NCBI GenBank assembly: GCA_018902385.1
Contig: JABSSW010000005.1
Location: forward strand, 1,054,001 to 1,118,000
Direction: 5' to 3'
Origin: Physcia stellaris
Taxonomy: Eukaryota; Ascomycota; Lecanoromycetes; Caliciales; Physciaceae
DNA: 64,000 bases
The notes beneath the pieces are model-generated. The model worked only from the letters and a program-made list of their open reading frames with translations. It was not told the origin of the DNA and did no database searches. Shown in pieces: positions 2,484-60,145 of this stretch. Position 1 is the stretch's first letter, and each line of letters begins with the position of its first letter. The translations under genes and the position numbers were made by a program.

Positions 2484-3790
2484 ATTGATGATACCTTTGA
2501 TGGTGATATTGGTGATGCGTAATATATGGTACGTAACAGGAGAGTAAGCTGGCAGACAGGTACCTATCTTGTCTTGACTGTTCTTTGAAAGACAGAACAT
2601 TAAGTTGAAAATCCTTGTAATGACATTGAAATACGTTGACTGCTAGGTAGGTACGAGTATTGGTGCCTGATAGACTGTTGGGCACTAAATGCCGCTGCAA
2701 TGACAGTCGATGTGACAATGTCGATTGATGGCTATGGTCTGTTGGTGCTTGTTAACCTCTTCAGCAGCCTTCCTGAACGAGAGGATCCGGTATGGGAAGG
2801 TGGTAGCGAGGTGTCTTTGATGATATATGGTGAGACGCAGTATATAATAGGTGAACGACTGGCAGCCAGAGATCTTGTTCGAGGTGTTTGTTGGCTAGAC
2901 GCAATTGCACAGGGCTTCGAATTGGTGGACACCTTTAATCAGGATGGGATGGGCTGACCATCATCCGGATGCGAGTGCTGATTGCGGACAGGTTTTCCTC
3001 GATGGACGGACCGTATTTGGTAGATGCACAATCCGATCGCTATCCCATGCTCTGATGTGATGCTAATCTTTCATGCATCACCGCTTACAGGTTCGATGCA
3101 ACCAGATATTTACTCTTTCATGCATCCAGAGTGGGGTGGCAGGGCCACGATACCTTTGATGATAATATTGGCGATGCGCATCAAGAGAGTTTGCTGCCAG
3201 ATACTTATCTTGTCTCGATGCTTTCTCGCAAAGGTGTAACGTACCACCGACATGGAGCTAGTGGATCGTTTTTATAGGAATTCGATGAACTGACTATTAT
3301 GTAGGTCCGAGTGCTGGTAAAAGTACTTCGTAGACGGAGGGCCACTGGATTCTGCTGCAGTGCCGATACATTCGACAACATCCGTCCATGGTTCTGGGTT
3401 GTTGCTGCTCATTAACGTTGTTAACCTACATCAGAGGGTGGAATTGAAGTGCCTTTGGCAGTACGATGTGATGCCCAGCACCTGATAGGTGGACAGGCCA
3501 AGCAGACTGACAGCCTGGTGTGTGTCTTGCTTGACCTTTGTGTTGGGAAGGTATAGTTACACCGAATCTCGGATTGCCGAACTCTTATAAAAGAGTGGGA
3601 TGGGCTGACTTGCAGAAACGAGTGCTAATTGTTGAACTATTTCTTTGTTGGGGGCATCGACTGACTGTGGTAGGTGCCCAATCCAGTCTCTTTCTTGACT
3701 GCTTATAATTGAGAGGCAGATACACAGACGCACGCGATCTTTTCTTGATGGAACACACTGAAAAAGAGGATGTTGACTGACCGTTGTGTA
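2456..3790. repeat. Two diverged direct repeat units of about 660 bp
   Basis: Unit 1 (about 2456-3115) and unit 2 (about 3120-3790) share, in order, GATACCTTTGATG, a CTTATCTTGTCT-like block, a block ending in GCTGCA, a TGTTGGTGCTTGTTAAC-like block, GGATGGGATGGGCTGAC and GTAGATGC. Spacing is roughly 660 bp. No long frame is conserved between the units, so this is non-coding DNA duplicated in tandem and then decayed. From 3791 to 4920 I see nothing further. Confidence 0.65.
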
Positions 3791-14636: not shown

Positions 14637-15289
14637 TGTGGTATGGGGGTCGCCTTGGACAGGAGAGGTCAGGAGGGGCTCATTGGGTTCAGCCGGGGGA
14701 TGGAGTCGCCGGAGGAATGCTAGACTATGTCGCTGATTGAAAATGCCGATTGAGCGACGTCAATTGAAACAAATTTATGCAAGTACAGAGGTAGAGGACA
14801 TCCAGCGTCGTTCTCTAATTTTGATCCTGATGCAAGATAGATGTACGTACCAACTCTTGGCAAGGCTGTGGACCCCTATTTTCACATGCCAAGAACCCCT
14901 TCTTCCTGCGCCTTCACTGTCCCACGGTTTAGGAGCCGGAGACTACGATTGTAACTACGCTTCATCTCCTCGATATCTTGCCGAGCACCAAAGATGGACT
15001 AAGACGCCAAAGATGGAAGTAAGGTATCAATGATATCTCATGGTCAGGTATGGTGCGACCTTGTCTCTCACGATATAACTCATTGTGAGAAGACGCGGAC
15101 CCCGTAATTGACAGAAGTATATGAATATGAAGATGCATGAAAGAGAACGAAACACCATCTGCTTATTTCGCCCCAAAGTCCGGTCATGGTAAATACCGAG
15201 CCATGAAATAGAAATCGTCAGATTTCTTTTCGATCTTCTACAAGATTCATATGGTTTACAAACAGAAAGATAAAACATCTCTTTCACGC
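14637..15289. other. Intergenic region
   Basis: This is the upstream region of the glycosyltransferase-like gene leading into the AT-rich island. Composition is ordinary until about 15240, where AT content rises abruptly. No gene, RNA or repeat is recognised. Short open frames at 14737 and 15027 have no family-like features. Confidence 0.5.
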
Positions 15290-18200
15290 TAGAGATTGTC
15301 GCAATTACGTATCATATAATCTACAAAATCAATAAATTAAATCAGACGAATTCGTTTCATTTAATTTATTTGAAAACTTATATGATTCACAAATCATTAA
15401 CGTGAAAAACGAAATTTCGTTTTTCGCGTTGTTTTTCGTTTTTCGCGTTGTTGTTGTTGTTTTAATCGAAATCACGATCATGATTCATTTCGTATATGAC
15501 AGACGATCTGTCTTGTTTTCTGTATTGAATCAAATCTTGATAATTGCATCGAAACGTCAACTCGTTGATATTCTCATTAGAATCGTTGTATTTGCATTGT
15601 TGTTTCGTCATGTCTCGCATCAAAAAGTTCATTCAAATCGTCATTGAGATTTCACAAATTCAGATTTTTTTCATTCAAAACGATCGCGTCAAATGATTTT
15701 CAAAAATCGTTGCAGCAATCGCGAAATGATTCAATCGACGAAATTCTGTTACGAACAAATGTTTGAATGTCATTTACTATTTGAAAAACGTCAAGATCGA
15801 AAACGCGAAAAAATGTTTCGATGACTTGAACTTGATTGCGATAATGCTTTTTGTCATCTTTCAAAAACTCGCTGAAAAGCTCGCTAACATGATGAGTATG
15901 TTCAAAAACATGCGAAACAAAATCGACTTCACGAATTGAAACGTTGATTTTGACGATCACAATTAATCGATGATCGATCAAGAACACATCGTTGAAATTT
16001 CTATCATCAAAACAATCATTGTAACGAAAATGTTTTGATATTACGAGTTCGAAAAAATCATGAACGAACGATCGAACGTTACATCGATTTTTTTTTTCGA
16101 GTCTGAACAGTCGAATCGACGAAATTTGCAAGTGATTGTTTCAAAAAATGCTGAGAAACAAAACAACAGCGATATTGATGTCGAAAATGACGTGATTTTT
16201 GAAAAAAATTGATCAGCAAGTTCTCGAACAGCTTTTTTTGAATTCGTCGCTGAATTGATTCAAGATTTTTTGAACGACGATGAAATCAGCGATAAAACGA
16301 AAAAAAACGCTCGCAAAAAAAAAGTTCGCAATATTCAAATTGACGAAATATTGATTCGTTTTGAAATTTTCGACGCGAATTTTTAAATAAATCTGTTGTT
16401 CATTTTGCTCGCAAAATTTCAATATTCATTTAATTAATAAGCAACGCATTTGACGATGTCACGAATCTTGAAAATTTGATTCAAAATATTTTTTTTTTTC
16501 GTTTTGTTTTTGTCAAAATGTTTGCAAAATTCGTTGATTCGACGATCATCAAAATTTTTGTTTTCAAATTTTTCGCATTTGCGAAAATTTTTGCGAAAAT
16601 TTTGCAAAATTCGTTCATGCGAAGTTTTTCAAACAAATTGAAATCAAAAAAAATAAACGTGTTCATTTATACGATTTCGAAAATAATACGAATCAAAAAC
16701 GAAACAAAAAGAAAAAAAACAATTTCAAACAATGTTTCGTTGTCGACGTTTTAATGAAAATGAAAAATAAACGTATCGAATTTGTTTTGACTCAAAACAA
16801 ACATGAATTCAAAAATGTCGTTTGCAATTCGATCGTGAAATTTTGCAACGCGACAAAAAAGCAATGCGACAAAATCAACAACATGAAAAACGCATATTTT
16901 AAATACAAATACAATTGACGATTTTGCAAAACAAAAATCTGAACAAAGATAAGCAAAAAGCTGAATCAAAAAAAAAAATCACTATTCATTCGAGCATTTC
17001 TTTATGAATAGTCAAAATTTTGACGATTTCTAAACATCGTCTTGCAAAACAAAAACGTGTTATTGCGAATTGATGATTTCTGCATTGCAAAAATGAACGT
17101 TTGAAATTTGTTTTCGATTTTTTCAATATTGTCATTATTGTTGTATTTTCATTATTGTTTTGCTCGTTGCACATTCGTTTAATTTGTTTCAATTTTCTGA
17201 TATACAATCTTTACATATATAACTAGATAGTCAATAAATTGCAAACGTTTTGATTCAATACACGTGACGATACATGTCGCTGTTGTTAAATTGAATTGAA
17301 TTGATTTGAACTTTGAATTTTGCAAAGAAACGAAATATCAATTGCAATATATGAATTTATTGTCAAAACGCGCTATTACGTGTAATAAAACATCATCATT
17401 TTTTTTGATAATGATGTTGCACGCTTTTGCGAAACGAAAATTGCGTTAATTGTAAAATACACGAATTGTATAAAATGCGAAATGTATTCATTGTTCGCTT
17501 TCGAGTTTGAATTTCTTTTTTCGAAATTTCACAAATTCGTTTTTGATTTCATTGAATTCAATCATTATTTTGTACGACAATGCGCTGATTCATTAGCAAA
17601 TGTAAAAAGCAATAAAACGAAATTTTGAATTTTGAAAATATGTTTTTGACACGATTCAATCGTTTTTGAAATTTTCATCACGCAATCAGATTTGTAAAAC
17701 ATCGAAACGAAATGAACAAACGTATATCGATATTTTGATTGCAAAATCGTCAAATTTGAAATGAAAAATCAATAATCGAAAAAAACAAATTGAATTATTA
17801 AATAAAAATTCATTTATTTTTCGCAAAATTGAAATTAATTATTGAATGACAGAAATTTCGAATTTCATTTCAAATACAAAATTTTTCAAAAAAAAAATTT
17901 TATTCAAATTTGTTCGCGTTTGTTTCGTTGCAATTATCAACAAATTTTCGTCATGTTCGTTTTTTTTTTTTCGATTCATCAATTTTCGTTCACGTTTCAA
18001 ACGTCGATCAAATCGAGAAAAATATTGTGAAAAATCACGCAAACGATGATTTATTGAATCATGTATTCATATTGTTTTTCGTTGTACAAACAAAAACGAA
18101 AATTCAATTAAATTTCGTTAACAATTTTTCAACATATCAAACGCGTGTTCGATGTCGATTTGAATATTAAAAAATTTGCGATTGAATCGTTTGTTGTTGA

Positions 18201-18293
18201 AAACAAAAACGATCGAATTTTTGTAAAAAAACGAAATGATTGACGTTGACATATGCATTATCGATCGGAAAATATTGATTGTTTTCGAAAAAA

Positions 18294-18603
18294 TGTAAGA
18301 CATTCAAAGTTCAAATCAGCAAAACATTGCGAATCGAATCTCGATAAAATTATATCAAGCAATTCGATCATCGAAATTCGATAAATCATGAAGACGATCA
18401 ATCTGATCACGTCAACATCAGATTTTCGATTGAATTCAACAAATTAAATACTTTCGAATAGATTTCGAAATGTGTGTACGATTGAACAAATTGACTGACT
18501 ATATAAACAAAAATTTGTAAAATAATTAGTTCTGCAATTATTAGTCTAGTCATACAATCGTTTCTGCTATACATCTTTGATGCCACATTTTTTGAGTTTT
18601 ACA
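18294..18603 (+). repeat. 5' LTR of the chromovirus fossil
   Basis: 310 bp beginning TGTAAGACATTC and ending GAGTTTTACA, so TG..CA ends with a short inverted TGTAA/TTACA. It contains GACTATATAA, a likely promoter TATA element. By my alignment it is close to 90 percent identical to the 3' LTR. Confidence 0.92.
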
Positions 18604-21600
18604 TTCTAATAACTATCATAATTCACAAATTAACATCATTCGTGTATACAACATGTCTACATTTTTCAACAGTATGAATACTTTTACGAACTTTGAAAAT
18701 GAACTCATTTTGAATTCATCAAAATCAGATGTCATCATGAAAAAATATCGAACATATATTCAACAACAACATGTTCGAATGAAAACATTACAACGTGCAT
18801 TTGTATTTTCGATCGTTCAGATTTTTGTCTTTAAAAAAAAGTCGTTTTACATTAAAATAATGAAAAACAAATCAAAATTATTCGTTGATGATAATTATAA
18901 AAAATAAATTTAATACGTTTGAGAAATGAAAAATCAATTCGACATGAATCAAATGAACGATTACGTCAAAAATTTTGACAAGATTAAATTTTTCTTTGTT
19001 GTAATCTTTTTGAAAAGAGAATTTATCGCACAATTATTCTGAAACGTTAAAATCAAAAACAATTCGAAAGTCAATTACATTTGAAAAAAATATGTCGACT
19101 TTTTTAAAAAAATACTAAAAAAGTTTTCACTAAAAAGAAAAATAATTTCGAAAAATATAAAGATTATAAACAACAAACGAATCAAACAATAAAAAACTAT
19201 GATGCACATCGCATCGCTTTGTTTTCGAATTTACATGAATTTATGAAGTTTTCATCAGCAATAGAACTGCAGAACTTCGTATTGAATTTAATTCAAAATA
19301 ATCAAAACTTTTTGATCGAACAAGAAATCGAAAACGATAAAAAGATAATTTTGAAACGTTTCAAACAACGAAAAGACTATCAACGCAAAAAGCAACGCAA
19401 TGTCAATCAAAATAAATCTGATAACGACTCTAACAAGCGCAAAAAAAATGAGAATAATTTCGATGAAAACGAAGACAACAATCGTCAATCTAATAAAAAT
19501 CGACGAAAGAATCGAAAAAACGATAAAAAATTCAAATTCGATAATTTTAATCGTAAGTCAATCAAGTTCAAGAAGCTATGACGTTGAATCAAGATCGAAT
19601 ACAAAAATATCGTGAACAACAATCGATGCATCGATTGCGATAAATTTGAATGCAATATCAAAAAATGTAAAAATATCAAATCGAATACTCGTTCATTCGA
19701 AAAGACATTTCATGAATCAAAATCAAAAAAATAATCGATTTGATCATCTTCAATCAAATTGACACAAAGAAAAACTCAATAACAAATGATCGAATGAATT
19801 CAAATTCGAACGAATTCAATACGTTCATTATCGAAATCAAAAACGTCAAACGTCGTCGAAAAAAATTTCGCATGATCAAATGCAAAAAAATCAAAATCAA
19901 AATAGATAAAGCATTTGACGAAAAAAATCAATTGAAAATCGAAATCGTTATGAATTCAAAAACAAAAATCAATTTAATAAATCATAAATTTGTTAAACGA
20001 TTCGAATTAAAATTATTCAACGTATCGAGTTGCGAAACAATGATCATAAAAAATCACTCATTCAAAATTTATGAAATTTATTTCGTGCAATTCGAAATAC
20101 AAAATGAAAACGACGTGAATCGTTTTTTTAACGATAGTTTTCTAGAAACAGATTTAAATTGAAACATGACTTTAAATTTGTTTTGAATACAATTATTTGA
20201 AATCGATATAGATTGAAACATCGACAAAATCGAATCGTGATCAGCGACTGTAAAATCATTTCTTTTCATCACAAATCGTATCGAAAAAATCGAATCAAAA
20301 AAACTAATCAACGCAATTCTCAATGAAAAAAAACATGTTTTCGTCATGTTCGTACAAATGATTCTTGACGAAATAAAATATTTGAATGACATACATATCG
20401 AACGACGATCACAAATCGACTCTGTTCTCGCGAAAATGAAAGAGAAAAATATCAAAAACTCTTTATTCGAAATCTTGAAAGAATTCGTTGACATGACAAA
20501 TGAAAACAAAGCATACGAATTATCTGATCATGAATTCGATGATCACGCAATAAATTTAAAGTCAGACAAGAAGTCATCGTATGAATTCATTTACGCATTG
20601 TTCGAAGACGAATTCAAGATTTTGCGAGTCTATTTGAATAAACATTTGAAGAACGAATTTATCAGACTTTTCATCTTCTTTGCAGGCGCTTCAATTCTGT
20701 TCGTTAAAAAAAAGAACGAGACTTTACGATTATGCGTAGATTACAGAAATTTTAATCTTTTAACGATCAAGAATAAATACTTTTTATCATTAATCGATGA
20801 AAGTCTGAATCGTCTAAGCAAAATTCGCAAATATATAAATCTTGACATGATAGCGATTTACAATCGATTTCGTATCAAAAAAGAAGACGAATGAAAAACA
20901 GCGTTCAGAACACGATACGAACATTTTGAGTATATCGTTATGCTTTTCGATTTCATTAATGCATTTGCAACGTTTCAAAATTTCGTCAACAAAATTTTGA
21001 TCGAGCGACTAGACTTGTCGATCATTGTTTATTTGAACGATATAATCATTTATTTCAAAGACGAAACACAACACGTCGAGAACGTCAAGTGAATATTAAA
21101 TCGTTTAAAAGAGCACAAGTTCTTTTTTAACATGAAGAAGTGTAAGTTTTTCAAAGATAGTATCGAGTTTTTGAACTTTATCGTTTCATCGAAAGAAATG
21201 CAGATGCAACAGAACAAAATCGAAATTATACAAAATTGATTTGCATTTAGAAACGTGTTCGAAATTCTCGAGTTTTTCGAATTGTGCAATTTCTATAAAC
21301 GATTTATCAAAAATTTCAGTAAGTTGACATTATCTTTGATTTTCATGCTAAAAAAATCAGCAGAATTTCATAAGAAAAAAATTAAAAAAAAACGAAATCG
21401 AAATAAAAGTCACAGTAAAAAACGATTATCGAACGAATTTTTGATTTTCGAAATTTTCGAATCATTCAAACGATTACGCAAAGCGTTTATGAAAATTTCT
21501 GTTTTGCAACATTTCGATTCGACTAGATTCATTCGTGTGAAAATCGACGTCTCGAATAAAACAATAAAAAAAATATTCTGTCAATCAAACGACAAAAATC

Positions 21601-24447
21601 ATTGACATTCGATAGTCTACTTTTCAAAAAAAATGATATCAGCGAAGTGTCACTATGAAATTCACGACAAGAAGCTTTTGATCATAATTTTCGCATTTAA
21701 ACATTGACGTCATTATCTGAAAAAAGCGAAAAAACAAGTTCTCGTTTTGACGAATCATCGAAATCTCAGTCGTTTCATGATTACAACAAAGTTATCATTT
21801 CGACAAGTACGATGAGCACAAGAGCTGTCACGTTACAACTTTGTCATCGATTATCGTTTCGGCAATAAGAATTTTGCGAACGACTTGTCAAAACGATCTG
21901 ATCACATGACGATCATCGAAAATGAAATTGAAAACAATCGTCAAATTTTGACGCGTCTGCGACAGTCTTTACAGACAAACTCAGACAAGTTTTCGATTTA
22001 TGTGAACGAAATCAAAGCAACGATGCCTAAGCTCAACGAAAGTGAAAAAGACAATTTTTCGAATGATTTTTTTGACGCTTCAAATACATCAGACGTGATT
22101 ATCGACGAGTGAAAGACATTAGTATTGAATAATGCAACGATTTTCGAGTCGATCGACGAAATGATTGCGCGAAAACATATTCATGAATATGATGCAACAT
22201 ACGACGATAAAATCATTGACAATTTTGTCGAACTGATTCGTTCATTGTTAAAAGAAGATTTTTGTGCGATTCAAATGAAACAGAAATTAGTTATTTTTGG
22301 AAAATCACACTCGCTTGAGTAAACGAGAAAGAAATATTGTGACACGAAAATCGTCTGTACGTTTCATCGAGTTTGAAAAAAAAACGTTATAAAGACGAAT
22401 CATGATAACTTTCTCGCAAATCATTTCGATGTAAAACGCATTCTGAAATTAATACGACGAAAATATTATTGATCGAACGAAAAAAAGAAAAAAATTTCAA
22501 CATGATTCAACATGCGAACACAAATAAAGAAATATTGCGAAACATGTGCAATTTGCAAAAGAAACAAAACATTTTGTCACAAATCATACGAAAAGTTATC
22601 GTCTTTTTTTATATCGAAATTCAAATGAGTTGACATTATTATGAATTTCGTGACAAATTTATTTGAAAGCAAAGCGAAACGAAGCAACGTACGATTCAAT
22701 ATTCGTTGTCGTAAATCGTTTAACGAAAATGACATACTACATTTCGATCAAAAAAACAATGATCGCAAAGAATCTCGTCGAAATATTGATTCGAAAAATC
22801 ATTAGATTTCACGATCTTTTTTCATCAATAACAACAAACAGAAAGTCGGATTTTATTTCGAAATATCACGACGTTCTATGTTATGTTTTAAAGATCAAAT
22901 TTAAATTATTCACGATTTATCATTCGCAGACAGATGATCAGACGAAACGTCAAAATTCAATCATGAAACAATATTTCAGAATCTACGTCAATTTTCAACA
23001 GAATAACTGAATAGAATTATTGTCGATGATTGAGTTTGTTTACAACAACAGTAAACATGCGTCAACGCAAATGTCGTTTTTGTGACAATGCAGAAATATA
23101 TTTCAAAAATGTTTTTCGAGAAGTTTGCAAATTTCAAAATTAAATCAAAATCTGCGAAGAAGCATGTCGAAAAGTTGATCGAATTGATGAAAATATTGAA
23201 AATCAATTTAGCATTCGCACAGAAACAACAAATCAAATACAAAAATGCAAAGACAAAGATAAAACGCTTTTACGTAAAAGATTACGTCAACGTTAATGAC
23301 AAAAACATTCGCATCAAACGCAATAAAAAACTCGAATGAAAATTTTTCGATTCATTCAAAGTATTCAAAACAATAGAAGATCAAACATATCAACTCGAAA
23401 TACTCAAGCGTTGACGAATTCATGACGTCTTTCACGTCTCGTTGCTGAAAAAGTCAAATCTAAAAAGAAAAAAAAAATTTCGCTAAAATTCACGTATCAA
23501 TCGAATATCGAAAATGACGAAGAATTCACGAACGAAAAGTTTTGAATTGAAATCATTTTGAACAGCAAAATCTATAAAGAAAATCAAATTTCGAATAAAT
23601 CATACAGTGAGTCAAGACTCTATTATCTGATTCAATGAAAAAATTACGAAGAACGTATTTGAGAGTCAGTTGCAATGATTAAACATCTAAGAAATATGTT
23701 TCGAAAATTTCGCATGAATAATTCGAAAAAAAATGATGTCAACAAAATCATCAATCGTCGACGCGTTCGACGTCAAATAGATGTAATTTTCATGATGAAA
23801 TCATTGACAAAAAAATTTAATTTTCACACGTAATTCAGTGCTATTTATTGTTTAAAATTTACGACGCATGAAAAACTGAATCGTGTCAAAAACATTTTCA
23901 AAAACTGCTGTTCGATTTGACTGAACGACGAGTAAAATGTGAAATGAAAAAAAAAAATCGAGAAAATTTTCGAAGTCTGATATATCGAATGCGATCGCGA
24001 CTACGACGTTTTTCGCGCTTAAATTTCTCATGAATTCGATATACGAAGAAGAAAAACAAAAAAATAAAAAATGACTCGAATTCAAAATTCACTGTCAATC
24101 AATTAGCTGTCAATCATCAAATCGAAAACTGTGAATTGTACGAAATCAAACTTTCGATTTTGAAAGCAGCAAATAATGAAATCATCAAATCATGCTTTTT
24201 CTGAATCATTCAAAAAAATGTACTCTCAGATTTTTAACGCAGACTGATTAAAGATCGAAATGAAAAATATTCAAATGCGAAAATCACGATGACAGTGATT
24301 TTTCAATTCAACGATTTCAAATGCGAAAATCGCGATTACAGCGATTTTTCAAATTTCAAAAAAGAAACATATTTACACAAGCTCAAAGAACTTCTATTGA
24401 AAAATGTTAATCATTTCAAGAAATTTCGATGCTAAAAAGAAAACGCA

Positions 24448-24754
24448 TGTAAAACATTCAAAATTCAAATCAACAAAACATTGCGAGTCGAATTTCGATA
24501 AAATTATATCAAGCAATTCGATCATCGAAACGAATAAATCATGAAAACGATCGATTTGATCACGTCAGCATCAAATTTTCGATTGAATTCAACAAGCTCA
24601 TATTTTCGATTAGATCTCGAAATGTGTGTACGATTGAGCAGATTGACTGACTATATAAGCAAAAACCTGTAAGATAATTAGTTTTGCAATTATTAATCTA
24701 GTTATACAATCGTCTTTGCTATACATCTTTGATGTCACATTTTTGAATTTTACA
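24448..24754 (+). repeat. 3' LTR of the chromovirus fossil
   Basis: 307 bp beginning TGTAAAACATTC and ending GAATTTTACA, colinear with the 5' LTR. I count 27 transitions against it, of which 25 are C/T followed by C or T (or the complementary A/G preceded by A or G), with only a couple of transversions and small indels. Confidence 0.92.
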
Positions 24755-25935
24755 AAAAAATTTCTGATTTTCGATTGAATGTTGAAAACGCAAACATTTT
24801 AACATCGTGTTGAGAATTAAATCAGTCATTGAACATGTAAATAAACATTTTCCTGAAATCGCAAACGATTAATAAATTCACCGCGTAACGTTTTTTTCGA
24901 TTGAAAAAATGTTCTTCATCGTATTTGTTTTCGAATTTTCTATTCAATACAATATCGATATCGTTCGTCTTATTCACACAGTCGAGAAAATCTGCGCGAA
25001 CGTCATTCTTCATATTCTCAATTTTTCGTTGTTTCGCGTCAGATCACTTGACGTAAAAATTTCGTTTCTTGCACAAAATCAAAATCACACGTTTGATACA
25101 TGTGAAAACATAATCTTCGAAAACTTCTCAAAAATTGACACAACTCATGAAGTCAGCATCATTTTTTTCGTGTTTCAGTTTATGAAAAGCAATAATCAAT
25201 TGATGTTGAACGAATGACTGAAAAACATAATTGTTGTTTTGAAATATCGCATCATTCTCGATGAATCGAAATACGTGTTTGAAAATCTCGCGATTCATGC
25301 GAACGAATTTTCGAAAACGTGTATTGAATAGTTCAAAAAGAACGTCAGCGACTCAATTGAATTTTGATATAACAATAAAACGAATCAACAAATAACGCTG
25401 TTGTCGAATATCGTAATACAAAACGAGTCAACGCAATGCAACAGAAAACGTGAAATCTGTAACAACGACATTTTGTATAAATTGTCATCACAAATCGTTG
25501 CGAAATCGTTTTTTCGAATTTCGACGAAACATAACGACGACGAGATGCAAAACAACAACAACAAACGCGTGTTCAGAAAAAAAGACGAATAAAACGTTTC
25601 AATTTATTGCGTCAAGAACGTATTATGATTGCTGCTATACTACAAATCGCCTAGCACGTACACGTTCACAGCATTTCTTGTTTTCGGAGCTCTCACGATT
25701 CTTTGACCCCATATGAGCCATGTAGTACACCTAGTACACCTAGAATGTAAGGAAAATAGCTTGCGAAAAAGAGGTCTGACGACCCCTAATAAAACGCCCC
25801 AACCACCCCACCAGCTCTTAGAGCCAGAACCATTCAGCAAAGCTGTAGCTCTCCCACCGGGCGATAACATATGTGCATCTTCGTCAACCCCGTAGAAAGC
25901 TCTCCCTTCTCTCAAAAAGAAGAAAAGAAAGAAAG

Positions 25936-27474: not shown

Positions 27475-28826
27475 CTCGCCACTGCTTTGATATAAGTTAT
27501 CAAAGCTCGATAGGCTTTCCTTGGACGATGGAGTACAACGGGGACAGCTTTGACATGCAGCGGAGGTACCAAAGCTGCCCCCACGATTGGTGCAGATTGC
27601 GCCATCGTGTTAACGTTATCGTGCTGAGCTCTGGCAGGCAATGGCATGATCTGATATGCAGCTAAAGCTGTTGGTGGGACGGAGATTTTGAGGTCATTGG
27701 CCCATTGGGTGGAAAGATCTGCGTGACAGGCGCTACAGCCCGAGACGGAGCAGAGGCCCGCTGTCGCCAAAGGACTCCCTAAAACTGAAAATCATCATGG
27801 CACTAACACACCATTGACTATTCTGATATCTCTTGAGAAGCTATTGCAGTGTGAGCTTGCTGATAGGCATGTGTGAGCATGTATGAAGGCTTTAATTCGA
27901 CGCAGACGTTCTTCTTAGATGTATGAAAGTCAAATCGCCGTCCAAAATTCCAGACCCCTTCAAGTAGAGATGGAGGCCAAGAACTAGCAGAAGAATCTGC
28001 GTGCTGCACATCAAACACCGATGTAGAATGAAGATCTTCTGCGTAAACTTCCCGGTCAATCGGAATATTCAAGTGAATTTACCAAATGATGCGAAGGCGG
28101 GTGTCAGGATAGTGAGCGAGGGTGCCAGCACAGTAAAAACCTTCATGGGATGTCGACACCGCAAATTGATAAGTACGCAATGACTCCACCTAAGACCTGC
28201 TATGAATGCACAAACGGGTCATATAATGAGGTTTGTTGTGACAATGTTGATGTAATCATGAACAGCCCTTTGAGGACATAAGCCTGAGGGAAATGGATGA
28301 ACAAGTGATGCCGGCATGAAGCACCGACCTCTCGATGACTTCACGACAACGACAAAAGCAGGATTCCAGAATCGTCTCGGGTCGCCAAAGATCAGGCGGC
28401 ATGTAGGTCCAGGATCCAGTGGCGGTGACCACTGGTGTGGGATCCAGATTCGTCTCTATCGCCAAGCGGCCTTGAACCATGAGACGATCGACCAATGGTA
28501 AGTCAGTTCCATGGGTCTTCCAGGGATCACACATCGTGTATAACGAGATGAAGTTTCACGTCACGTAATACGGTCCGAGCCATAACGGTCTGCGGCTCTG
28601 CGCATGTCATCTTCGTATGCGCCTCCACAACGTCGTCTGTGCAATTCCAACCGAGGAACGCTATGGCTTTGACAGATTTGACAGTACCGCGAAACAGAAG
28701 AGTGGATCCCACGAAAATCGCCAATCTTGCCTATAATGCAGCATGGCCCATTCCCCACAGGAGTGCGCCTCAGATCCTGTACCTCTCTGGGATCGTGGCG
28801 AAGTCGATTGCGATTTTTTTCCAAAG
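27475..28826. other. Intergenic region
   Basis: This is the divergent promoter region between the MFS transporter (-) and the secreted protein gene (+). Short frames at 27354-27770, 28256-28534 and 28561-28833 show no signal peptide or family motif. No repeat was recognised. Confidence 0.5.
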
Positions 28827-29778
28827 ATGACATCTTTATTTCTTTCTCTATATTGGCTCGTGATTGCTTGCTTTACAGCGGTCAGATGTCGCGCTCAGGA
28901 TGTCAACTCCTCGATCAACGGGTTGAATGATACCACACTTGACAGCTCCGCTCGTACGCTTCTAGAGGTCTTACCAGAAAGCATAACGACCGGAAAATAT
29001 GGACCTGATGCTATCCCCGTCGGAAATTACACGCTTTTAGGATGCGGACCCGACGTGCCAGGTTCAAAGGCAGATCATCTCAAGGTCCTTCTTCCAATCT
29101 TCCTCAACCGGCTGGAACAGGTTATCGCAGACACCAGGATGGGAATATCTGGCTTCCATGGTTATCGCATATTCTTCAAGGAAAGTGCCGTTAAGGAAAC
29201 CGTTGAAGCCGTCTTTCAAAACATCCAAAACGGTAGCGCTGTGCGTCTGCAAACAAGGCGTGGCGACGTCGTGAGGACGCCCAAAATTGTCTGCTTGGGC
29301 GAAGACGAGGATGAAGCCCATGTCACCGGCATCGGCAATCTGTACGAGTTCTACTGCACCGGTAATTTCGGATTGGATAGTCCTGCAGCGCAATTCCGGA
29401 GAACAGAGCTGGTGGTCTTATGTCCCAGCTTCTTTCAATTGAATTTCTGGCCCTTGTTAGTGGCGTGTCCGAAGAAGGTGAATGGCGAATGGTCTCCGGA
29501 CGGAACAAATCTGTTACAAAGCCAATTTGCGACTTTGACAAGAGCTTTGTCTGGGCTATACATTCCACGCAGTAGACGGGCATTGGAATCGGCGCGACTC
29601 GAAGGTATAGCGAGTCTGCAGTCTGTTGCTGATTGGCCTGCTAGTAAAGCAGTGGGAAGTATAGACAGCTATGCCTATTATGCTGCTGGTAAGTGTTTTG
29701 TTCTTTCAGCCTTTGAAATCTACCCGGCTGACGAAAGCAGGTGCTGAGGCAAAGTGTTCAAAATGGCCCATTACATGA
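28827..29778 (+). CDS. Secreted zincin-like protein, likely inactive (paralogue A)
   Basis: Exons 28827-29688 and 29741-29778 give 299 residues. The start is the ATG that opens a signal peptide (MTSLFLSLYWLVIACF..), although the frame is open from 28743. The 52-bp intron is GTAAGT..GCTGAC..GCAG and restores a C-terminal KCSKWPIT. The body matches the secreted protein at 59211-60145: GCG near the N terminus, LEQVIAD, HGYRIFFK, VLCPSFF and SYAYYA before a terminal Cys. This order recalls fungal secreted zincins of the deuterolysin/lysine-endopeptidase type, in which HExxH lies between the CPxFF and SYAYYA blocks. Here that position reads ATLTR (235-239), so zinc binding should be lost. Function is unknown; a binding or effector role is inference. 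Confidence 0.75.
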
Positions 29779-33001: not shown

Positions 33002-33035
33002 ATGGCGTTGATTAAATTTACAGTTTTACTTCTTC

Positions 33036-35717
33036 TTGCTCGCCTTTGCAGTACAGTCCCAGTGGCCCCCATCAATGGCGGGCAGGGAATACACGGAGAA
33101 TCCACTTGTGAGTCGGATTTCCAACCCAGGAATATCCACTGACATTATAGAAGATGTATCACTGCCTACCCAGACTCTCCCCTCCACGACCCTCGCGTCA
33201 TCCATATCAACCGCTACTTTGTCGCGAACTTCGAGCCTGTCGACTGGGAATCCTCTAGGAGAGCCATCGAGTTCGTTGGCAAGTGATTGGATGGACAGCG
33301 TCAGCTGGCTGCCTGGCACTATACCTGGCTGCACATCCACCCAAACAGCGGTCGTTAGAGGCTCCACTTCGCTAATCCCCAGGCCATGCTTGTCCGGAGG
33401 TAATGGTCCAGCCACGATGCCAAGCCAGCCACAAAGATCTGATGGAGGCATTGGTGGCCCTGTTCCTGTCCTGCCTCGTCCTCAATCATCGGTGGCTGCT
33501 TTGGGCCCTATCGAACAACCCGGCCAGGGAGGTAACACAGGTGGAGATGCTGGAACGCAACATACAACAACAGCAACTACTGACACAATGGTCTCGGCTA
33601 CACCAATTGAAAGCGCGCAACCTGCGTCCACACCAAGTCCAGTCGTTGCAAAGTCTACAGCAGCGGCACAACCATCTTCCAGCAATGTTATCTCAAACCC
33701 AATTGTTGCTGGTGGAGGGAGGGGAGGATTGCCAGTCCCACGACCAGAGTCGTCGGTTCAAGGACTTGAGCCGGTAGGAGCGCCCACAAATGCTCCTCTT
33801 CTGGGCGCTGGCGAGCCTGCAGCTACACAGAGCAGCAATAGTCAAAACGGTTTCGGTGGAGGTGCTCTAATCCCAGATGGACAAAAGAGTGCGAGTTTTC
33901 TAGGTGTACCAGGAGTAGCTGGTGCTCCAACAAAGATGCCTAACGAACCAGAGCCCGTCAAGATTTCAGCTCTTCCACCCGGTGTGATCTCCGTTGGATC
34001 AATAGCTATCACTGCAGATTCATCTTCACATTTCGTGATCGGATCGCAGACGCTGGCTCCAGGCTCGGCACCGATAACGCATTCAGGGACTGTGTTTTCT
34101 CTTCCTTCATCAGGGCCAGGCGTCGTCATTGGCCCTAGCACACAGTCGATACTTGCGCCGTCGCCGCAATCGGCACCTGTAATCACTATAGGAAGTTCAA
34201 CGCTCACTGCAGACTCCTCCTCGCGATACTATATTGGCTCTCAAACGCTCGTGCCAGGTAGCACCATCATTCACGGTAGTGAAACGATTTCGCTAGCCAC
34301 TGATGCCTCTGCTGTCGTTATGGGATCTCAAACTCAGCAGATCACTTATCAGCCAATTACTCCCTCAATACCTATGATTACCATCGGTGGATCTACGCTG
34401 ACCGCAAATCAGGCGTCCCAATTTCAGATTGGATCTCAGACTCTGGTACCTGGCGGGCCGGCGATAACCAACTCCGTAGGACAAATTATATCATATGAAA
34501 GTGGCGGCTCTTCCATCATTGTTGATGGGCAGACCCAGAAAGTTTATCAGCAGATACCTACGCCTGCGCCTGTCATTACAATAGGAGGTTCGCGTATTGC
34601 TGCCGATTCCTTGTCGCACTTTGTTGTTGGAAGTCAAACATTAGTTCCAGGCTCCAACGCCATCACGGTATCAAACCAGATTATCTCACTTGCATCATCT
34701 GGCAACGCAGTAGTCTTTGGTGAACATACCCAAGCTATCAATGCACCCTCTCAATTTGTGGCCACTCAGGCGCCAATCCTCACACTTGGTCAGTCGACGA
34801 TAACTGCAAACTCGAAATCCGAATACATCGTTGCAGGACAAACCCTGCATGCAGGTGGTTCCGCGATTATGGTCGGAGGCTCAACAATTTCACTTGCGCC
34901 CTCCGCCACAGCTGTCGTGGTCAATGGAAATACCGTTTCACTAAGTCCACATTCTGTACTTGCAACTGTCGCACCTCCCATTATCACGATTGGCCCGTCA
35001 GCTATAAAGCCCGGAATGAACGGAGACTATGTCATTGCCGATCAGACTCTCTCCGCAGGTGGAAGCGCTATCACAGTATCCGGAACTCGGATCTCACTCG
35101 GCTCTGACACGTCCCAACTTGTGATTGGAAGTTCAACCCAGCATCTGTCACCACAAGTGCTTGCATTAACCACCGAAGCACCAGTCCTGACTCTAGGAAG
35201 TGCTCATATTACGGCCGTTCCTCCATCAGAGTATGTGTACGGAGGGAAGACTTTCGAGCCAGGCGACATGATGACAATATCCGGAACTATCATATCACTT
35301 GCTGCCGATGACTCCTATTTCAATATTGGCGGCAGCACCTCGATGATTCCAAAGTCGGATTACATGTTTGGCACCCAAATGTTAGAGCCAGGGCATGCAA
35401 TCACTGTCTCCGGGACAGTGATCAGCCTAGCCAGTGACGATTCCTACCTTGAAATTGGCTCGAGTACTCAAACCTTGCACGGTCATACTATCACTCAAAG
35501 TACCTTTGCAAAGTCCACTGCTTCTGTATCTGCGAGACCTTCCATCGGCGACTTTATTACTGGATCTCTGATCCAAGCCGCGCCCACGGTGCCAGCGAGT
35601 GCGAGTGCGGGCCCGTCGAAAAAGAGTATTGGAAGCACGAGTCATGGTAAATCTGGGCTCGTTTGGTCCAGTCTGATTTGTGGGATAGCTGTTATCTGTT
35701 TATCTCAGTCCATTTAG
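33036..35717 (+). CDS. Repeat-rich GPI-anchored surface protein (start unresolved)
   Basis: An open frame of 893 codons. Residues 1-300 are Ser/Thr/Pro/Gly-rich and contain three related segments (PVLPRPQSSVAALGP, PVPRPESSVQGLEP, LIPDGQKSASFLGV). From about 33983 to 35490 come eight repeats of 50-68 residues with the pattern ITIGGSTLTA..IGSQTLVPG..ITVSGT.ISLAS, as in fungal cell-surface proteins predicted to form beta-solenoids. The C terminus is a short hydrophobic tail after Ser/Gly, a GPI signal. The main frame has no ATG before 33075. A signal-peptide-like start (MALIKFTVLLLLA, ATG at 33002) lies one base out of frame and would join the main frame within the TTCTTCTTG run near 33035. So either there is a slippage or assembly error, or translation begins at 33075 without a signal. 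An intron at GTGAGT 33108 to TATAG 33150 would create a stop and was rejected. Confidence 0.8.
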   Translation: MLAFAVQSQWPPSMAGREYTENPLVSRISNPGISTDIIEDVSLPTQTLPSTTLASSISTATLSRTSSLSTGNPLGEPSSSLASDWMDSVSWLPGTIPGCTSTQTAVVRGSTSLIPRPCLSGGNGPATMPSQPQRSDGGIGGPVPVLPRPQSSVAALGPIEQPGQGGNTGGDAGTQHTTTATTDTMVSATPIESAQPASTPSPVVAKSTAAAQPSSSNVISNPIVAGGGRGGLPVPRPESSVQGLEPVGAPTNAPLLGAGEPAATQSSNSQNGFGGGALIPDGQKSASFLGVPGVAGAPTKMPNEPEPVKISALPPGVISVGSIAITADSSSHFVIGSQTLAPGSAPITHSGTVFSLPSSGPGVVIGPSTQSILAPSPQSAPVITIGSSTLTADSSSRYYIGSQTLVPGSTIIHGSETISLATDASAVVMGSQTQQITYQPITPSIPMITIGGSTLTANQASQFQIGSQTLVPGGPAITNSVGQIISYESGGSSIIVDGQTQKVYQQIPTPAPVITIGGSRIAADSLSHFVVGSQTLVPGSNAITVSNQIISLASSGNAVVFGEHTQAINAPSQFVATQAPILTLGQSTITANSKSEYIVAGQTLHAGGSAIMVGGSTISLAPSATAVVVNGNTVSLSPHSVLATVAPPIITIGPSAIKPGMNGDYVIADQTLSAGGSAITVSGTRISLGSDTSQLVIGSSTQHLSPQVLALTTEAPVLTLGSAHITAVPPSEYVYGGKTFEPGDMMTISGTIISLAADDSYFNIGGSTSMIPKSDYMFGTQMLEPGHAITVSGTVISLASDDSYLEIGSSTQTLHGHTITQSTFAKSTASVSARPSIGDFITGSLIQAAPTVPASASAGPSKKSIGSTSHGKSGLVWSSLICGIAVICLSQSI

Positions 35718-45477: not shown

Positions 45478-46408
45478 AGGGCACTTGGCTTCTTCTTGAA
45501 CATACTTTGGTCCACGAAATAGATCTCGTGTACCTTCGTATCAGTGCATTAAATGATGATGTCTTTCTATAATCTCCAAATCATAAGCTAACCCATCAAA
45601 GAAAAGGCCACGACTCCAGTTGAAGTCTCAAAGCACAGGGACCTACATCTCAGGCACACGGCCGCCTCAGATTGTGCGCCGGCTGCCATGACTTGTACAT
45701 CAATCACACCTGTGTGCCTGGGAAGATCGACTACCTAGTAGTTAGAAGCAGACTTTGAAAGCAAGTTTCATTCCTGCTTCAAGAGCTCTCGTTGAAACTT
45801 TCAAGTCAATCGTGTGTTTGGTGAAGAGCATGGATCCGGAATAGTCTTTCAACGCCAAATCATACGCGACAGCGGGTAAACCCCCAAACCAGACTTTGGT
45901 ATAAGCGCGGGTGTCCGGCGACTTAGTACGCCGATCATTTGTACCTAAATAATTCTGAAGCAACGAAACAACAAGCGCGGCGACATGGTTGGAGTAGACG
46001 GGTCCTTTGCCGCACGAATGCAGGTCCCGAATTGACCATTTCCTGCACAATGACAGCTCCCTGACCTGCTTCCTCAAGGTTGCGGGGAAGCTTGTTTGTT
46101 TGGCCAGACACGTAGTACAGTGAACTTTCATACAGCAGGTGGATAGCGTGAATTAGCGTCTACTAACTCTCAGGAAGAAGCAAGCTTTGACGAGATTATC
46201 CAGAGACTACTCTTTACCCGCAGTGGAAGACCGCTGTAACTACCCGTGGCGTATCAATCCACGACCTATAAAGAGGCTCTTGTCCCGTTGCCGAGATGGA
46301 TTTGTACTTCCAAGCAAACTTTGACATTGTCAAGCCTCTCACAGCTACTTTCCTAATCACGACTTCATCTCTATCGCAAAGTATCCCTACCGCACCGACG
46401 TCTCGGCC
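45478..46408. other. Intergenic region with possible minus-strand remnant
   Basis: A minus-strand frame at 45742-46131 (129 codons) has coding-like texture (VWFGGLPAVAYDLALKDYSG) but no recognised family, and I do not call it a gene. TATAAA at 46267-46272 lies about 140 bp before the CFEM gene start and may be its TATA element. Confidence 0.4.
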
Positions 46409-58380: not shown

Positions 58381-59210
58381 TAATATTAATATAGCGGTCA
58401 AGGAGTTCAAATACTTATCTCAAAGACAATATGTGATCTTCTGCCTTCAGTCTCTTTCGCAACTCCTCTTCCTTTCATCATAGACGAGATGAACCAAGTC
58501 AAAGATCACAAGAGCGACTGATAAATAGTCGACATCGCATAACCCTAATGCTCCCTCAGGCAGCAGCAACGCCGCCTTGGATAAAACTCGGAAACCCGGG
58601 CTTGGAAGGGGGGAAAACCGAAGACAAATTTGGAGACCAACTCAGGCAGGCGAGACCAGCATTTTGTACACAAGTGCATCGTTAACATCGAGTGTAGGAT
58701 AATCTTACCCAGCAACGACGTCGACATCGATGGTAATCCTAAAGCGCAAAATAACTACGAAAATGAAGGAACGGAGAGGAGAGTGGGCGAGAAGAACAAA
58801 AGATGTGCATCCAAAGCATAATCTCACTTTCTAGCAGCATTTAATGCCGCTCTATTTTGCAGAATTCCTCAGTCGTGAAGCCAATAAACTCGAACACATG
58901 GAGGATGTCTCGGTTTGAGTGAGGTTTATGAGAATGAGGAGACTCATGGAATTCATGAGCGAGAGGACAGTGTGAAAGGAAGTTTGACGTCTTGTTCTGC
59001 CCGCGCGAGTCTGTCTCTGGTGAAACAGTTGAAGAAGAAATGTTTCAAGCGGCTCCTCGTGTCTTGAGCTATTCTTGGGCCAGGTCCATCTCATATCGCT
59101 TAAGAGTTCTCACATGCGTCCAAGCGCCGATTGTCATTCATAACTGCAAAATGAATACCCATCCTTCTCGGGCAGTGTTCGACCGCGTTCAGGACCCAAA
59201 AGCCTTCGTA

Positions 59211-60145
59211 ATGTTATCACCCTCTCCCAAAATCCTGCTTTTACTTCTAGCCATACTCACCTTCACCACCGCCCGGCCTGGCGACTTATCACGAGCCACT
59301 TTCGTCGATGTAAATGTTACCGAAGTCGGAGGAACAACCCATTTCAATGGATACGAAGTCTCCGGATGCGGCGACCCTAGAGACCGAACGTCAAAAGCCA
59401 ATTATATAATAACTTTCCTGTATCAAATGAAACAGCAGCTGGAACACGTAATCGCCGATGCCAACCTTGGTACAAATTCCGAGCACGGCTATGCAGCATT
59501 CTTCAAGTCCAACCGCAACATAGGCAAGGTGGTAGCGATGTTCGAAAAATTTGTTCACGCTTGGCCTATCATCGTAGACGCAGACCGCGCTCCGTTGACA
59601 GAGGCACAGACACGGACTCCACAGCCACGCTTCACCTGTTTCGATGAGACCGACGCGAAGAATGCAGCCTTTTTGCGCGATTGCACCGATCAACCGGAAA
59701 AGGATCAGCAATTTGTTCTGTTTTGGCCGGGAGCAGAGATCATGGTCGTTTGCCCCAACTTCTTCACCGCTAGACAGTTTCCTGCGGCTGGGAGGAATTG
59801 TCCTGAATTGAAAAATGGAAAGTTCAATATTGGAGATGAGAAATTGATGAAAAGCCTGTTTGCTGAAATGGTTTATGTCCTGGTGCTTTTGTATGATCGA
59901 GGTATAAGGGAGGACTGGACTCATAAATGGGACATGCAGTACGCTGTGGAACTTAGTTCAAGACATAGTTTGGGTTTCGCGGAGAATTATGCTTACTATG
60001 CTGGTGGTAAGTATCCATAGCGAATGAGCTTACATAATTTGTGGAATTATGACAATACTGATCATCAATAGCTGTGCAAGGGAATTGTACGAGCTTTCCA
60101 AACGTTGCTGGACGCCGGGACGAGTTGAGACTGCGACAGCTGTGA
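59211..60145 (+). CDS. Secreted zincin-like protein, likely inactive (paralogue B)
   Basis: Exons 59211-60006 and 60072-60145 give 289 residues. The ATG at 59211 opens a signal peptide (MLSPSPKILLLLLAILTF); the longer open frame from 58992 is leader. The 65-bp intron (GTAAGT..TACTGATC..AATAG) lies at the same place and phase as in the gene at 28827-29778 and restores YYAGAVQGNCTSFPN. Shared blocks are GCG, LEHVIAD, HGYAAFFK, VVCPNFF and NYAYYA. The place of the zincin HExxH motif reads AEMVY (218-222): the Glu is kept and both His are lost. It is therefore probably a catalytically dead secreted protein; its role is unknown. Confidence 0.78.

Follow-up and report, generated by a model that had tools for sequence, protein, structure and literature searches.

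The RID-dependent RIP of Neurospora crassa, which takes place between mating and meiosis, converts C to T on both strands of repeated DNA, prefers CpA and raises TpA; its mutations come in one-strand tracts, and CpC is its least used site. The accessible text of a survey of 1,239 fungi presents the CpA preference as shared by RIP-like defences (PMC12543289). CpT-biased signatures are given, in the parts of the papers available to us, for Botrytis, Sclerotinia and Magnaporthe, with CpT to TpT change exceeding that of CpA in the repeats of M. oryzae and B. cinerea T4 (PMC4352252), for Colletotrichum truncatum, whose CpT-biased families have a TpA/ApT of about 1.6, i.e., CpA has already been consumed (PMC6180176), and for Stagonospora nodorum and Neurospora Tad1 (PMC2621366). 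The nearest precedent in the literature searched is formed by the short rDNA repeats of S. nodorum, in which CpT became TpT without CpA to TpA change and for which the authors, in the section available, doubt RIP as the cause (PMC2621366). Partial texts also name CpG or TpCpG as the hypermutation context in Microbotryum (cited in PMC4352252) and report, for heterozygous SNPs of Rhizoctonia solani AG8, CpC as the commonest class (one per 214 bp vs 370 for CpG), the authors naming a CpG bias (PMC4014442). In the repeats described here the preference is inverted with respect to the CpA rule and is nearly absolute; a repeat signature that puts CpC first and spares CpA was not found in the literature searched, where partial precedents exist.

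Composition and anatomy of the island

The window, i.e., the whole stretch of 64,000 nucleotides that was analysed, contains a CpY-hypermutated island at 15207..25649 (no strand assigned), delimited by repeat homology and by CC/GG positions. The outer repeat aligns with another of its copies from 15207 onwards. The final CC/GG run of ordinary kind ends at 15201, one further step lies at 15253 and the next one beyond the island at 25650. Between 15290 and 25625 just 10 CC or GG steps occur across 10.3 kb. The observed/expected ratios there are 0.02 for CpC, 0.48 for CpT, 1.23 for CpA, 0.40 for TpA, 1.48 for TpC, 1.31 for TpT and 2.70 for CpG, the last being raised by the scarcity that C and G acquired, whereas the flanks are normal (CpC 1.00 left and 0.97 right, CpT 0.97 left and 1.02 right). 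Per 1000 strand-bases, CpC/GpG falls from 59.0 in the flanks to 0.48 in the island and CpT from 62.6 to 24.5 (39% of normal), while CpA (69.5 to 63.4) and CpG (54.4 to 57.4) are about unaltered. The heavy chunks in the density comparison were selected by CC+GG ≤1, thus their CC value is built in, but those for CA, CG and CT are not. In ten 60-base lines the initial annotation had counted no CC+GG, about 25 CT+AG, about 81 CA+TG and 41 CG, and our recount gave exactly these numbers (CC 0, GG 0, 25, 81 and 41).

The island consists of an older repeat, which carries no strand assignment, and of an LTR retrotransposon nested in it on the + strand (18294..24754). The left part of the older repeat (15207..18293) has relatives on contigs C30, C25, C1 and C37, and the right part (24755..25640) has eight genome matches including itself. 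The two parts are about 3.5 kb apart on C30 vs 9.95 kb in the window, which indicates that the C30 copy is without the retrotransposon. Judging from the letters, the AAAAA flanking the retrotransposon on either side may be a 5-bp target duplication; in the outer element, terminal inverted repeats were sought and none was found (score 21 vs a shuffled maximum of 26). The LTR pair alignment places the 5' LTR at 18294..18603 and the 3' LTR at 24448..24754, both on the + strand, and a reverse transcriptase domain (RVT_1, match C5:1074703-1075182) interrupted by two TGA lies between them at 20703..21182 (+). Realignment of the LTRs yielded 32 differences in 308 columns, i.e., 25 CpY transitions (23 CpT, 1 CpC, 1 mixed), one each at CpA and CpG, 2 transitions adjoining an indel and 3 transversions, and the earlier count of 25 CpY sites among 27 transitions holds.

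Mutation spectrum against unmutated copies

In the 44 Mb of genome searched, two retrotransposon families include copies of normal composition usable as observed references, L010 and L081, selected because their composition is normal and their RT frame open. With L010 as query, 19 further matches were obtained, all at 69-75% identity, and CpY hypermutation was present in 11 of the 11 examined. Relative to L010, these copies lost 93-99.5% of CpC, 76-98% of CpT, 3.5-14.5% of CpA and 0-7.4% of CpG; in L027 the changed sites were 442/444, 450/461, 26/444 and 0/411, respectively. Summed over the 11 copies, 8921 of the 9369 differences were C>T or G>A (3816 and 5105), and transversions amounted to about 0.5% (160 in 35,031 aligned columns). 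The L081 family shows a graded mutation series, with CpA and CpG at background in the lightest copies, the background being that of the sister copy L082 against L081 (CA 14/592, CC 18/607, CG 10/556, CT 20/548). In less saturated copies CpC was mutated about twice as fast as CpT. CpA change rose above background in heavier copies (L020 62/428, L086 47/593), and in the distant pair L043 vs L046 CpC was not first (CC 0.30, CT 0.42, CA 0.18, CG 0.25).

The initial annotation had named two observations that would speak against its reading; both were looked for and neither was found: CpC and CpT are at normal levels in unmutated copies of the mutated families, which excludes chance and inherited composition, and CpA-depleted 500-bp chunks numbered 0 of 482, counted over the loci then collected, some overlapping and mostly found via homology to repeats. 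The proposed RIP-like CpY process that spares CpA and CpG is supported, yet with CpA change of up to 14.5% in the heaviest copies. Most loci in this study were located by homology. Several share sequence: the window overlaps L001 and L037, L006-L009 overlap L040-L042, and so do the members of the pairs L011/L081, L012/L082 and L077/L080.

The base 5' of the cytosine was nearly without effect; all four were alike at CpC (changed fraction 0.965-0.984 in the L010 family). At CpT, GCT and CTG were less mutated than the other contexts (0.34-0.37 vs 0.42-0.58 in L083 and L084). TCA and TCG were kept, with changed fractions of 0.070 and 0.033 in the L010 comparison and densities 1.8 times those of the flank. 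One copy of three tested, the lightly mutated L083, has a one-strand tract of about 0.9 kb with CpY at 7/111 on one strand vs 99/129 on the other (0/200 shuffles as extreme); such a tract was absent in L084 (106/200) and L085 (14/200). In the L010 family, TGG codons of the RT frame became TGA in 20/22 and TAA in 2/22 cases, and CGA (22/22) and CAA (11/11) stayed unchanged. Stops in 150 RT matches were TGA 250, TAA 33 and TAG 3 in a tally copied by hand; L026 is hypermutated, yet its RT match is without a stop.

Many contigs carry the signature, and it marks LTR elements, most of the DNA transposons examined and an rDNA pseudogene, the latter being the sole 5.8S match above cut-off; one of the alignment sets behind the DNA transposon and rDNA evidence used five blocks picked as whole and well conserved. 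Confinement to repeated DNA was seen where it was measured, at the left island edge, where mutation begins ≤50 bp from the repeat boundary, and in the window flanks, which are normal. Among 20 hand-placed, non-random samples, 107 of 120 chunks were normal. The near-identical pair L011/L012 (95% over 3.5 kb) is unmutated although duplicated, which suggests that the process is occasional or now silent.

Candidate enzymes and rival explanations

We consider it likely that a RIP-like, repeat-directed C-to-T mutator acts or recently acted in this genome and that it is a C5-methyltransferase, most plausibly of the RID/Masc1 class. On either strand of the repeats C has become T at nearly all CpC and most CpT, with CpA and CpG at or near background. 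Such a cytosine-5 DNA methyltransferase would flip out C and sense its 3' neighbour, its +1 preference would have shifted from A to a pyrimidine (CpC > CpT >> CpA, CpG), and the modified C would become T in one or several bouts. The initial annotation had suggested looking for rid and dim-2, and three PF00145 genes were found: two RID-class genes with the catalytic motifs present, L042 (motif VI EQT) and its short paralogue L040 (EET), and the DIM-2-like L041. Both triads are described (PMC6709928). The enzyme would most likely be L042 or L040, possibly L041. The combination of RID and DIM-2 points to a filamentous ascomycete; a PDB search with a host peptidase gave oligopeptidase and neurolysin entries, none recognised as fungal.

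The residues of L041 were read by alignment to 9bap/9baq, which we infer to be the Neurospora DIM-2 of PMC11315935, with PDB chain number equal to paper number + 2 (C926 is chain 928). Compared with Neurospora DIM-2 alone, L041 retains S930, R1043, R1145, T1164, T1166, T1167 and D1173 and carries L932S, Q941S, R1039H, T1100S, Y1102I, R1104Q, N1170A and R1175I; in the part of that paper available, N1170 contacts the base pair at +1, and the intercalating residue is R1175 (PMC11315935). More tentatively, a non-canonical catalytic unit, either the EET-type paralogue L040 or DIM-2 with replaced DNA-reading residues, may now be CpY-specific and constitute a distinct genome defence in which stop codons arise nearly always from TGG to TGA changes and the relics retain their CpG.

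A single-strand DNA cytidine deaminase that reads the 3' pyrimidine, with no methyltransferase involved, seems unlikely, although tracts such as that of L083 are also expected from a deaminase on single-stranded DNA and the genome has a small number of PF00383 matches, eight at the exon level. AID/APOBEC-type enzymes read 5' bases, and here the 5' effect is small, with just a mild GCT deficit. DNA transposons and rDNA are mutated too, and L053, the one PF00383 match of the eight inspected, looks like a gene of dCMP-deaminase type split by an intron. Editing of reverse transcripts is ruled out, since DNA transposons, rDNA and both strands are mutated.

Little probability also attaches to slow decay, in which repeats would be permanently methylated at CpC and CpT by a DIM-2-type enzyme in heterochromatin and these sites would be lost gradually through 5mC deamination without a repeat-induced burst. 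A DIM-2-like gene is present and, according to the portion available of a review, Neurospora DIM-2 prefers CpT for methylation (PMC13297926), but 93-99.5% CpC conversion alongside some 0.5% transversions leaves little time for passive decay, and the L083 tract and the unchanged CpG of L027 also argue against it. Decay by CpG methylation and deamination is rejected, as CpG is spared. CpC and CpT are dipyrimidines, as UV-like damage in unrepaired heterochromatin would require, but TpC is one as well and the spared TCA and TCG refute this scarcely credible explanation; the unaffected unique flanks also argue against it. Methylated repeats are open to misreading, e.g., by a long-read caller that gives T for methylated CpY, but such an assembly or base-calling artefact is very improbable given near-complete changes that create stop codons, copy-specific patterns, transversions and indels, and a same-family copy that reads normally. 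Ordinary element composition, or the codon usage of the host, acting without any mutation has a practically negligible chance; nothing was found in its favour, and the normal CpC and CpT of unmutated copies refute it.

Relation to known systems

The RIP indices of the island (TpA/ApT 0.42, substrate 1.36, composite -0.94) lie further from the RIP range than those of the surrounding genes (0.67, 1.23 and -0.56), therefore such genomes would be scored RIP-free by the usual tests. A CpY index, (CpC+CpT)/(CpA+CpG), is 0.207 in the island vs 0.982 in the flanks. If the non-canonical CpY enzyme is real, index methods now in use would class the lineages that have it as RIP-negative. A natural enzyme set with opposite 3' specificity would bear directly on how RID-class enzymes choose a site.

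The bias from C to T with a preference for the 3' neighbour resembles basidiomycete hypermutation, but according to the available text the AG8 changes affect genes and repeats alike (PMC4014442), whereas here unique DNA is spared and CpG is untouched in L027. CpT-biased genomes such as Botrytis target CpA too and, in the parts of the sources available, CpC is not their leading class, while here CpC comes first and CpA stays; two RID/Masc1 genes are likewise described for B. cinerea and S. sclerotiorum (PMC4352252, in part). A Masc1-class enzyme and duplicated DNA recall the MIP of Ascobolus, unlike which, as methylation without mutation (PMC4352252, in part), the DNA here is mutated. Unlike the RID-dependent RIP of Neurospora crassa, with its canonical CpA context and raised TpA/ApT index, the process favours CpC, leaves CpA at or near background and has a low TpA/ApT; like it, the process acts on repeats by overwhelming C-to-T change on both strands, in a genome with RID-class and DIM-2-like genes and, in one copy of the three tested, with a strand-wise tract.

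The hypermutated island in the window

Between 15290 and 25625 the window is almost devoid of CpC, with observed/expected ratios of 0.02 for CpC, 0.48 for CpT, 1.23 for CpA, 2.70 for CpG, 0.40 for TpA and 1.48 for TpC; CpC and CpT both lie near 1 in the flanks. The ten-line dinucleotide tally of the initial annotation was reproduced exactly on recount (CC+GG 0, CT+AG 25, CA+TG 81, CG 41). Per 1000 strand-bases, CpC falls from 59.0 in the flank to 0.48 in the island and CpT from 62.6 to 24.5, whereas CpA (63.4 vs 69.5 in the flank) and CpG (57.4 vs 54.4) stay close to flank level, thus both were merely left standing, without enrichment, as other C and G were lost.

The island consists of an older outer repeat into which an LTR retrotransposon of 6.46 kb (18294-24754) has inserted. 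Contig C30 carries the outer repeat without this insertion: the counterparts of window positions 15600 and 25550 are separated by about 3.5 kb on that contig, against 9.95 kb in the window, and the retrotransposon makes up the difference. Homology to the C30 copy starts at 15207, and CC/GG is normal up to 15201, occurs once at 15253 and is then absent before 18267, so on the left the limits of mutation and repeat agree. On the right side, the first CC/GG beyond the island lies at 25650, and matches to other copies extend to at least 25639. The bias of the LTR differences towards CpY (C before a pyrimidine), claimed initially, persisted in the realigned pair of 308 columns, which holds 25 CpY transitions against one CpA and one CpG, the remaining differences being two transitions adjoining an indel and three transversions.

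Elsewhere in the window, the ORFs at 28737-29747 and 58959-60020 resemble diverged paralogues by eye, sharing stretches around a CG, LEHVIAD/LEQVIAD and an HGY motif, and a 901-aa ORF at 33012-35717 shows, likewise by eye, many repeats of a TIGGSTLTANxxSxFxIGSQTLxPG-like motif.

Target context in repeat families

The reference for polarising mutations was L010, a retrotransposon copy of normal composition (GC 51%) whose RT frame is open. A search with 1.4 kb of L010 gave 20 matches, one being L010 itself; the other 19, some partial, have 69-75% identity, and 11 of these 19 were aligned to L010. The proposed targeting of CpC and CpT with sparing of CpA and CpG was borne out in all 11 copies, with C-to-T change at 93.0-99.5% of CpC, 75.8-98.2% of CpT, 3.5-14.5% of CpA and 0-7.4% of CpG. 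Pooled trinucleotide rates were 0.965-0.984 for NCC across all four 5' bases, 0.834-0.899 for NCT, 0.067-0.093 for NCA and 0.011-0.069 for NCG. Among CpC sites covered by at least eight copies, 350/428 were changed in every copy and none of the 428 was intact throughout; 281/429 CpA and 344/394 CpG sites were intact in every copy. By log survival, the CpC rate was 1.2-2.4 times that of CpT (about twofold in the less saturated copies), and the CpT rate 17-62 times that of CpA. TGG was almost the only source of stops made by the process: in the RT frame it became TGA at 20/22 and TAA at 2/22 codons, CGA (22/22) and CAA (11/11) were retained, and CAG became TAG once in 66.

A second reference, L081, lies at the same place as L011, and its unmutated sister L082 sets the background (CA 14/592, CC 18/607, CG 10/556, CT 20/548). 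Four of the 38 others among the matches listed for this family were compared with L081: L083 (CA 17/593, CC 462/601, CG 14/555, CT 234/539), L084 (CA 21/588, CC 522/603, CG 16/554, CT 261/541), L085 (CA 31/593, CC 575/607, CG 18/556, CT 411/548) and L086 (CA 47/593, CC 559/606, CG 22/556, CT 406/547). L083 and L084 have lost 77-87% of CpC while their CpA and CpG remain at background; CpA loss rises to 5-8% in L085 and L086.

Within bases 1-900 of L083 (reference coordinates), CpY is mutated at 7/111 sites on one strand and 99/129 on the other (CpC 75/82, CpT 24/47), a contrast matched by none of 200 shuffles. The same test revealed no one-strand tract in L084 (106/200 shuffles) or L085 (14/200). 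The first C of CCC was mutated less often than that of CCA or CCG in L084 (0.71 vs 0.90-0.91), as would follow if the adjoining C was in many cases a T by then, an indication that mutation came in more than one round. Rates in L083 and L084 were below those of other CpT at GCT (0.34 and 0.36) and CTG (0.34 and 0.37), thus a weak context exists beyond the 3' base.

Mutation counts of L083 (C95) and L084 (C51) are nearly equal at about 1200-2200 and 2600-3600 of the reference and diverge at 0-1200 and 2200-2600, a patchwork that could reflect either common ancestry or gene conversion tracts. L011 (C5:1166521) and L012 (C12:60312), 95% identical across 3.5 kb, are unmutated with long open frames and escaped mutation despite duplication; their differences lean slightly to CpY (74/122 clear-context transitions).

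Among other pairs, the distant relatives L074 (CC 0.85, CT 0.83) and L026 (CC 0.65, CT 0.50) show the pattern over a high background (CA 0.23, CG 0.21 and CA 0.26, CG 0.28, respectively), and L024 vs L037 gave CC 0.83, CT 0.62, CA 0.21 and CG 0.12. For DNA transposons, L043 vs L049 gave CC 0.77, CT 0.59, CA 0.08 and CG 0.08; against the more distant L046 CpC was not in the lead (CC 0.30, CT 0.42, CA 0.18, CG 0.25).

Spread across the genome

CpY-specific repeat hypermutation is real, widespread and near-complete. In the 44-Mb assembly of 147 contigs, an RVT_1 search gave 527 candidates, of which 150 were scored and listed; 140 of these contain internal stops (TGA 250, TAA 33, TAG 3). Composition was measured in 30 excised RT loci, where degenerate loci mostly have CpC near 0, CpT from 0 to about 0.6 and CpG from 2.4 to 4.3 (observed/expected); L015 and L026 are in between, L024 is almost normal, and L010-L013 and L038 are normal. 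DDE_1 DNA transposons gave ten matches, nine with stops, each including TGA and one also TAA. Among the nine loci covered for composition (all except L052), CpC is near 0 in L044, L045, L047, L048, L049 and L051, partly depleted in L046 and L050, and normal in L043. Twenty hand-placed 3-kb samples comprised 120 chunks, 11 hypermutated, two intermediate and 107 normal. CpA depletion, which would contradict the initial CpY reading, occurred in none of 482 chunks from the loci in hand at that stage.

A reference independent of transposons came from an rDNA pseudogene on C41 (about 45899-46052; 5.8S with parts of LSU and SSU), which bears the CpY signature. Five alignment blocks were scored at positions conserved in Rfam: CpC was changed at 10/11 and CpU at 7/18 sites, and CpA (13/13) and CpG (15/15) were retained. 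This pseudogene is the sole 5.8S match over the cut-off; no intact 5.8S exceeded it, thus a functional rDNA array seems absent from the assembly.

Candidate enzymes and known systems

Dependence on the 3' neighbour with hardly any on the 5' base would be expected of a C5-methyltransferase. The PF00145 search of the genome found three genes: the DIM-2-like L041 (which scores 630.7 bits against a solved DIM-2-type chain) and two RID-class genes differing in the motif VI triad, L042 (934 aa, EQT) and L040 (513 aa, EET), which are 40% identical across the 307 positions aligned in their catalytic part. According to PMC6709928, the Masc1/RID group is marked by EQT or EET replacing ENV, and the paper gives B. 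cinerea and P. destructans as cases of EET. PF00383 deaminases gave eight exon-level matches. In alignment, several DNA-reading residues of Neurospora DIM-2 are replaced in L041, which may offer a lead to the cause of the context. These genes are only candidates for the acting enzyme.

RIP contexts in ascomycetes were reportedly surveyed by Clutterbuck in 2011. In the accessible parts of the literature searched on RIP and dinucleotide context, mostly outside subscription journals, we found no repeat-confined signature with CpC first and CpA spared, so this one may be new. CpT signatures are described mostly alongside CpA (PMC4352252, PMC6180176), with CpT predominating in M. oryzae and B. cinerea T4; CpT is the dominant alignment class in the control fungi of PMC7882544, and short rDNA repeats of S. 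nodorum have CpT changes without CpA changes (PMC2621366). Monilinia is said to have CpC-to-TpT double changes beside CpA (PMC8959702). In R. solani AG8, CpC is the commonest class tabulated among SNPs, which differ from our case in being spread over genes and repeats alike (PMC4014442). The CpY process in P. stellaris works like RIP but lacks the canonical CpA signature of RIP.
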